Below are positions 3,175 to 30,479 of a DNA stretch of 64,000 nucleotides, piece by piece; positions within the stretch are counted from its first letter, which is position 1; every line of letters starts with the position of its first letter. Both the position numbers and the translations under genes were made by a program. This stretch comes from Planctomyces sp. SH-PL62. Lineage in GTDB: Bacteria; Planctomycetota; Planctomycetia; Isosphaerales; Isosphaeraceae. The stretch spans positions 5,332,001 to 5,396,000 of the forward strand of contig NZ_CP011273.1 of NCBI RefSeq assembly GCF_001610895.1. Direction: 5' to 3'. Below the pieces are notes generated by a model. The model saw only the letters and a program-made list of their open reading frames with translations. It did not search any database and was not told where the DNA came from.

Positions 3175-3362
3175 ACGGCCTCATCCTTGCGAGAAGGATT
3201 CGGAAAGATGAGAATTCGCCACGCCGCGCTGATCTTTCGATCATGCTGAAGCCGCCGTCGGATTTCCAGAGAAGTTGAAAAGTTGAACCCGGGAAGCCGT
3301 CCGGGTGCAGGTTAGTCGTAGAGCCGAGCTTCGACCGGCCTGATCCGAGCGAGCCAACGAGC

Positions 3363-29477: not shown

Positions 29478-29502
29478 CCCAGGCCCGAGCACCGATCTTT
29501 CT

Positions 29503-29554
29503 CGCCCGCCTCCGCCGCGTCACCGACGACCGGCGAAGGCGGGCGATTTTTTTT
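29503..29554 (+). terminator. Intrinsic terminator
   Basis: A 15-bp GC-rich stem (CGCCCGCCTCCGCCG with CGGCGAAGGCGGGCG, one mismatch) with a 13-base loop is followed by eight T residues. This is the clearest rho-independent terminator in the window. It ends the coiled-coil/small membrane protein unit. Confidence 0.88.
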
Positions 29555-29564
29555 GGTTTTTCCG

Positions 29565-29592
29565 TTTACTGTACAGATGACACGTATATAAT
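29565..29592 (+). promoter_or_regulatory. Promoter of the Rad52-like gene
   Basis: TTTACT (4 of 6 to the -35 consensus), a 16-base spacer and a perfect TATAAT lie in a sharply AT-rich island immediately after a terminator. Transcription should begin near 29600, about 115 bases before the start codon. CTGTACAG overlaps the -35/spacer junction. Confidence 0.7.
29569..29576. promoter_or_regulatory. CTGTACAG palindrome inside the promoter
   Basis: An 8-bp perfect palindrome overlaps the end of the -35 hexamer and the spacer of the Rad52-like gene's promoter, where a bound repressor would block polymerase. Its half-site CTGT is the same as in E. coli-type LexA boxes, but the spacing differs, so the regulator is open. 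Confidence 0.35.
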
Positions 29593-29714
29593 CGGGTCGT
29601 GAGGGAAATGACGATTGAGCCGAGATGGATCGTCGCTCGACTCGCCCGAGATCAGGAACAGGGCGCTCAGGAGTCGTCGGCTTCCCCTCCTCTATCAGGA
29701 AAGAACGACCACTC

Positions 29715-30479
29715 ATGTCCCAGCACATCGAGATTTTCGCGGCGCTCGCCGCTCCGTTCGCGAACGACGAAGTGCGGTCCCGGAGCCAGGGGGGCCGTGA
29801 GTTCCAGTATGTGACGGCCCGGACGGTCATGAATCGCCTGGACGAGGTCCTCGGCCCCGCGAACTGGTGGGACGAGTACACGCCGATGGACAACGCGATC
29901 ATCTGCCGGCTGACGGTCCGCCTGCCGGACGGGACGACGCTGACCAAGAGCGACGCCGGCGGGTTCACGACCACGGCCGACACCAGCGACTACGAAAAGA
30001 GCGGCTTCTCCGACGCCTTCAAGCGGGCCGCGGTCAAGTTCGGCGTGGGCCGTTATCTCTACGGCGACGGCGTCCCGCAGTCGATCCGCGAGACCCTCGT
30101 CCGCGTCCGCCGCGAGCAGGCCGCCGCGGCCGCGCCGCAGGCCCCCGCCCCGGCGCCGGCCCCGGCCCCGGCCGTCGAGGCCGAGCGGATCGCCGCGGAA
30201 CCGCTCCAGCCGGCCCCGCGGTCCGCCCCGGAAGTCTCCGCGGGGGTCGCCCCGAAGTCGGGCAAGGCCCTCTTCGCCTGGGTCAAGGAACGCGACGAGA
30301 AGCTCGGCGTCGACCTCCTGAGGACCCTCAGCGATTGGGGCAAGAACAACCACTTCCCCGCCCGGATGGTCCAGTGGAGCGGCGAGCAGGTCGACCAGGG
30401 CCACTCCGAGGCCGTCCGCCTGCTCTCGGGAATGATGGCCGACGGCCCCGCACTGGCCTCCGCCGGGCCCCGCCGTTGA
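29715..30479 (+). CDS. Rad52/Rad22-family DNA single-strand annealing protein
   Basis: A 254-residue protein. Residues 1-125 match the Rad52 annealing domain: FQYVTARTVMNRLDEVLGPANWWDEYTP, CRLTVRLPDGTTLTKSDAGGFT, and YEKSGFSDAFKRAAVKFGVGRYLY, the last being the most conserved signature. A proline/alanine-rich linker (about 140-185) leads to a C-terminal region (KALFAWVKERDEKLGVDLLRTLSDWGK) of unknown role. Such proteins anneal complementary single strands during recombination and are best known from phages and eukaryotes. No phage genes surround this copy. The start follows AGGAAAG. It is a single-gene unit with its own promoter, discussed separately. Confidence 0.85.
   Translation: MSQHIEIFAALAAPFANDEVRSRSQGGREFQYVTARTVMNRLDEVLGPANWWDEYTPMDNAIICRLTVRLPDGTTLTKSDAGGFTTTADTSDYEKSGFSDAFKRAAVKFGVGRYLYGDGVPQSIRETLVRVRREQAAAAAPQAPAPAPAPAPAVEAERIAAEPLQPAPRSAPEVSAGVAPKSGKALFAWVKERDEKLGVDLLRTLSDWGKNNHFPARMVQWSGEQVDQGHSEAVRLLSGMMADGPALASAGPRR

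Follow-up and report, generated by a model that had tools for sequence, protein, structure and literature searches.

The locus under study lies within a 64-kb window (the whole stretch of DNA that was analysed) of a 6.8-Mb genome, here G000, which belongs to the same genus as Paludisphaera soli (G003). It comprises a gene for a Rad52-family single-strand annealing protein (SSAP), here called rad52, and the terminator, promoter and leader that precede it (Table 1). The gene start was set at 29715, the start of 11 aligned orthologues, and an ATG at 29625 was not used. An earlier note on this DNA had described a strong terminator and then a TTTACT-N16-TATAAT promoter ahead of the gene, and both were recovered. 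The stem-loop of the terminator has a fold energy of −36.8 kcal/mol, with a z of −7.2 and none of 200 shuffles folding as well, and the terminator was not listed by a simple terminator scan. The promoter was the sole one found in 3 kb, compared with 0.2 ± 0.4 in shuffles; its −10 is kept in all six genomes of the genus and its −35 in five, G002 departing. The 5' leader of the window folds no better than shuffles (z +1.0), and no match to Rfam was obtained in the window at gathering scores.

Table 1. Features of the rad52 locus, in positions of the window
Feature	Positions	Strand	Basis
Intrinsic terminator of the upstream gene (stem-loop 29502-29546, eight T 29547-29554)	29502..29554	+	Fold energy
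Sigma70-type promoter, TTTACT-N16-TATAAT	29565..29592	+	10/12 consensus matches
8-bp palindrome CTGTACAG	29569..29576	.	Lies in promoter; in 3/6 genomes of the genus
Eroded LexA-type operator (candidate), TGTAC-AGAT-GACAC, left half intact	29570..29583	.	Genus comparison
5' leader, partly conserved within the genus	29599..29714	+	Genus alignment
Shine-Dalgarno-like AGGAAAG	29697-29703	+	Sequence
Rad52-family single-strand annealing protein gene, 254 aa	29715..30479	+	Pfam, PHROG, orthologue alignment, structure model
Rad52 annealing domain, residues 6-119	29730..30071	+	Pfam PF04098 and human RAD52 VIA-align
C-terminal helical domain, about residues 180-236	30252..30422	+	Orthologue alignment, model

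The 254-aa protein is a member of the Rad52 superfamily of SSAPs. It matches Pfam Rad52_Rad22 (PF04098) with an E-value of 9.2e-15 (55.3 bits, curated cut-off 20.3), and its best family match is PHROG 1097, 'Erf-like ssDNA annealing protein' (E 1.5e-24). The Rad52-type annealing domain is followed by an Ala/Pro-rich linker and then by the conserved C-terminal helical domain. A structure model of middling confidence (mean pLDDT 67.6, pTM 0.39) was searched with Foldseek, where all 13 hits at E ≤ 0.001 were RAD52 entries (best E 9.7e-6) with low TM-scores by query length (0.25–0.28). With VIA-align the top six rows were all RAD52 over 101–105 residues, human RAD52 covering residues 1–111, at Z 7.0–7.2, where a Z below 8 is weak on its own. 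Solved structures searched by sequence gave no meaningful match. This kind of protein is already known: 1,178 bacterial Rad52 proteins are counted among 10,280 SSAPs (PMC11783212) and Rad52_Rad22 is reported to occur in metagenomes (PMC10140301). The interesting parts are the SOS link and the conserved leader of the sister genera.

A homologue was present in 26 of the 45 genomes of the family Isosphaeraceae, in 10 of 21 genera. One match (G047) was weak, covered the C-terminal part only and was dropped, leaving 25 rad52 loci including the window. Upstream of rad52, on the same strand, 24 of these 25 loci have the same coiled-coil gene (the exception is G024), and the conserved locus spans the genera of Paludisphaera, Singulisphaera (Singulisphaera acidiphila, G055), Aquisphaera (Aquisphaera insulae, G041), Tautonia (Tautonia sociabilis, G058) and others, with glycogen synthase or other glycogen genes 3' of rad52 in many loci. 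The neighbours in the window are Lnt and glycogen synthase (Pfam) and TrpG-, MoeA-, GalT- and GH57-like proteins (by eye); the flanks are cellular and no phage genes were seen adjoining rad52. The earlier description of a chromosomal gene with its own promoter, outside any prophage, is thereby borne out. Outside the family, distant homologues were detected with the protein query in 3 of 15 genomes of the same class (G026, G035 and G039). A phylum-wide PF04098 scan was positive in 2 of 199 genomes, one of them that of the window, so the profile misses distant members; among 14 named controls, PF04098 was positive in two, Deinobacterium chartae and Thermus composti. A scan of named genomes returned 17 loci with an alignment as query and nothing with a single protein as query.

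Relatives were also found on viral contigs, at 2 loci in one search and 12 in another, with a best identity of 61%. Matches occurred in 161 phage records, none of which reached 80% coverage of the query at one place; Rhizobium phage RHph_N2 matched with 42% identity over 44% of the query. A second, shorter Rad52-like gene without the C-terminal domain was found in P. soli (L046, 7989-8453) and in G005 (L047, 7828-8340), in both cases in an island-like setting with integrase-like and primase-like ORFs (by eye). The C-terminal extra domain, which the earlier note had listed for the chromosomal copy, is present and conserved but not peculiar to that copy, as it is found in several viral and mobile relatives, including 8 of the 12 viral loci (by eye). 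It also recurs behind Pro-rich linkers in other ORFs (L029 in G005, L030 in G021), which suggests a shared interaction module, the linkers inflating the match. In a tree of 45 rows, 23 of them chromosomal (G009 and G012 left out), chromosomal, viral and mobile rows were intermixed; several branches are long and the deep order is unsure. The chromosomal label needs 8 changes on this tree, at least 4 of which are forced by starred branches. Because the three kinds of row interleave, the gene has probably moved between hosts and phages, and the mixing of viral with chromosomal copies means that the lineage is not a purely housekeeping one.

The palindrome CTGTACAG, to which a repressor had been proposed to bind, lies in the promoter as claimed. 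It is a single copy in the window, and because about 0.6 copies per window are expected by chance from base composition, it is notable only by its position in the promoter. Conservation in orthologue promoters was found in only three of the six genomes of the genus (G000, G002 and G003, the window included), for which reason the literal palindrome was rejected as the operator, and the sharing with recA and lexA promoters that had been proposed as a check was not seen in the upstream stretches of these two genes examined in G000. The palindrome forms the left half of a longer dyad of 14 bp, TGNNC-N4-GNNCA, one half of which is held by CTGTAC. The elements behind the −35 are TGTACAGATGACAC in G000, TGTACAGATGAACC in G003, TGTACGTGCGAACA in G001, TGTACGTATGTCCA in G005, TGAACGCAGGAACA in G004 and TGTACAGGTGATCC in G002. 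The dyad is exact in three of these genomes, all outside the window, and one base off in two; the window copy departs at two of the six fixed bases, both among the three in the right half. By eye, the dyad shifts its place, from the spacer of −35 and −10 in the Paludisphaera group to the −35 in Singulisphaera (G014 and G055) and to just after the −10 in the Tautonia group, and despite this it stays in or at the core promoter. As it overlaps the core promoter, its conservation may in part be that of the promoter.

Of the 25 genomes searched, all have lexA and 24 have recA. The recA promoters of the family carry dyads like TGATCGGGCGTACA, which is itself the form in G000. A high-scoring dyad was detected at the Y-family polymerase gene (PF00817; UmuC-like by eye) in 8 of the 11 family copies examined, and in six of these it immediately follows a TTGAC −35 box, the arrangement of Paludisphaera rad52 (by eye); the promoter in G000 is TTGACC-TGTTCAGGCGTGCA. 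The TGTTCTGGCGTGCG-like site of lexA is conserved, less perfect than the dyad and beside other conserved blocks. The helix-turn-helix region was nearly unchanged in the 12 LexA proteins compared, out of 25.

Matrices were built from such sites. Eight recA sites were chosen by eye from 14 upstream stretches, in which the 14-mers of G003, G005 and G014 duplicate that of another row, G008 is unclear, and G010 and G011 (cut locus) were not used; recA was without a match in G012 and partial in G015. Five distinct lexA sites came from 12 of 16 family genomes searched, where G009, G011, G012 and G015 have short loci and G010, having another site, was left out; for G005, a site taken by eye was used in preference to a higher-scoring 14-mer. 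The eight UmuC-like sites were the best under the recA matrix in 11 copies, of which G006, G009 and G010, with lower scores there or elsewhere, were left out; three further copies lay outside this set, and scores for the genus's other PF00817 paralogue were kept out of the matrix. Selecting sites in this way works in favour of the motif and not of rad52 itself. The controls, 122 in all, were regions upstream of 12 neighbouring genes in the same genomes, many of them intra-operon or coding and not promoters. A set of 300 decoy matrices was made by permuting positions and bases with the same information and symmetry.

With the recA-only matrix, the mean best score of the rad52 regions was 9.64, against 5.15 for the controls (n=122; Mann-Whitney p 1.2e-9, the rows being related and hence not independent evidence). 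With the combined recA, lexA and UmuC-like matrix, the mean difference between rad52 and control regions was 4.35, larger than with any of the 300 decoys (mean 0.51, maximum 3.80). Ten of the 25 rad52 regions were equalled by at most 2 of the 122 controls and 13 by at most 7. The others were equalled by 8 (G021, G009, G044 and G045), 14 (G058), 20 (G048), 27 (G024), 30 (G019a), 44 (G041), 48 (G040), 83 (G000) and 96 (G011); scores were weak in G024, G019a, G048 and G058, and no convincing dyad was seen in the rad52 upstream regions of the Aquisphaera group (G011, G040 and G041). At the family level, a candidate operator like the sites of recA, lexA and the polymerase gene is present at rad52 in many members. 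An intact operator was not found in the window's own promoter, where the best site in 300 bases scores 3.7, like the controls. Of the SOS link that the earlier note had raised for the palindrome, the relation of the promoter element to recA, UmuC-like and lexA sites is supported, and the 8-bp form and the window copy are not.

Genome-wide, TGWWCNNNNGWWCA was counted 15, 20, 46, 18, 7 and 34 times in G000 to G005, and its reversed control 3, 2, 8, 5, 6 and 5 times; in G004 it is no commoner than the control (7 vs 6). GATC bias may explain part of the excess. The rad52 site is one of the 20 matches in G001 and one of the 7 in G004. Repair genes near matches include recA (G000 and G001) and, judged by eye, genes resembling 3-methyladenine glycosylase (G000), mutL and SplB (both G001); many matches adjoin genes without an evident repair role. 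The sole exact match of G000 inside the window is TGATCTTTCGATCA at 3230-3243, and a near-perfect dyad, TGATCGCACGTACA, was noted in the same genome at C1:2420025-2420038 (L171). In G000 (L169) and G001 (L194), TGTTCGCGTGAACA lies 50 bases upstream of a glyoxalase-like gene (by eye) and may reflect SOS control or be the site of another regulator.

The protein belongs to its family, the locus and promoter are conserved, and the dyad is like the recA and UmuC-like sites. With moderate confidence, we read rad52 as a Rad52-type annealing protein gene in the SOS regulon of the family, its control weakened in the genome of the window. The gene is a resident chromosomal Rad52 superfamily member of Isosphaeraceae and would work alongside RecA. 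Its product is predicted most likely to bind single-stranded DNA as an oligomer, which would anneal complementary strands, or protect ends, in double-strand-break repair. A LexA-type operator, TGNNC-N4-GNNCA, would overlap the promoter in many family members, with LexA blocking rad52 until DNA damage activates RecA; in the window's species this operator would be eroded. Since the right half of the window copy is degenerate, repression in G000 is probably weak or lost. Binding of the dyad by LexA, induction by damage and annealing activity are all what we infer from sequence. The weak points are that the best lexA site, TGTTCTGGCGTGCG, is imperfect and that the UmuC-like and lexA sites were chosen via the recA matrix or by eye. 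The LexA motif reportedly described by Erill and colleagues in 2016 for Verrucomicrobia, TGTTC-N4-GAACA, is close to TGNNC-N4-GNNCA, and comes from another phylum. LexA motifs are diverse (PMC8565304). Among the matches listed in the open-access literature on planctomycete LexA motifs or regulons, on Rad52 with planctomycetes and on repair in the family, no title or abstract opening described such a gene or motif, most subscription literature lying outside this scope. If the SOS reading is true, a second bacterial lineage besides Deinococcus would have a resident, damage-linked Rad52-type repair gene that is not a phage tool, and a LexA motif would be predicted for a planctomycete family.

It is possible, if somewhat doubtful, that the promoter is an ordinary constitutive one and that TGTAC is part of a conserved −35/spacer region with no repressor bound. 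In the genus the element lies next to the −35 or overlaps it, the dyad of the window is eroded, LexA binding is a prediction and the controls are not all promoters, all of which would suit such a promoter; against it, no decoy matrix out of 300 picks out the rad52 promoters as well, TGTAC extends past the −35 hexamer, and a similar dyad stands after the −10 in the Tautonia group and also at recA and the UmuC-like gene. Distinctly unlikely, in our judgement, is that rad52 is a phage recombinase, captured and still working mainly for mobile elements, with the conserved site an accident of a stable locus. The identical upstream neighbour in 24 of 25 loci and the gene's own promoter and leader speak against this, even though relatives on viral contigs and in island-like regions, the changes of chromosomal label on starred branches and the C-terminal domain common to many viral and mobile relatives would agree with it. 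The phage Rad52/Erf/Sak SSAPs (PHROG 1097) share the annealing domain and differ in being phage genes, whereas the Isosphaeraceae gene occupies a fixed chromosomal locus.

Compatible with the SOS reading, and somewhat unlikely, would be a role in DNA-end protection like that of DdrA (DR0423) of Deinococcus radiodurans, in place of strand annealing. DdrA is of another phylum and belongs to another damage regulon than the LexA-type; the LexA-type site and the conserved C-terminal domain are those of the planctomycete gene, and the two are likened by description, not by sequence. The DdrA paper presents a bacterial Rad52-family protein that is induced by DNA damage, including radiation, and binds 3' ends, and for which its authors detected no annealing (PMC515370), in line with end protection; the best family match of the present protein is to phage annealing proteins, which argues the other way.

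In six genomes of sister genera (G021, G046, G045, G048, G009 and G055; loci L037, L213, L211, L212, L221 and L215), the stretch between the promoter and rad52 holds a terminator-like hairpin (−34 to −45 kcal/mol). The order is reversed in the Paludisphaera group, with the terminator first and the promoter after. Weaker hairpins were seen in G012, G019a and G059, and the scripted hairpin search found none in G014, G013, G024, G041, G056, G057, G058 and G044. In a 13-row leader alignment (G045, G048 and G058 left out), 8 of the 11 hairpin pairs were changed on both sides in at least one row, with a small covariation term (−0.71) and with pairs broken in some rows. Near-invariant motifs, TTGCACCCGGT followed by GATCCTCCGGGGGGCG, stand ahead of the start codon in most rows and are missing from G059 and G012. 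The hairpin may serve in attenuation, belong to a small RNA or be a shared terminator that is read through. A rad52 gene fixed in the LexA regulon and doubly controlled in several sister genera, by a LexA-blocked promoter and by the hairpin and leader (through attenuation or an SOS-driven small RNA), is conceivable and, on balance, unlikely.

As a general regulatory motif, GATCCTCCGGGGGGC was rejected, its nine exact matches in nine genomes falling five at rad52 and four in coding sequence (by eye). Two Rfam matches in one sister-genus leader were far below gathering scores and were taken as chance. The rad52 orthologue of G009 (L221/L045, contig C85, about 83806-89365) carries two interrupting inserts, one of about 2.35 kb and one of about 2.41 kb, each of which holds a reverse-transcriptase-like ORF of about 610 codons; by eye, these are two group II introns.
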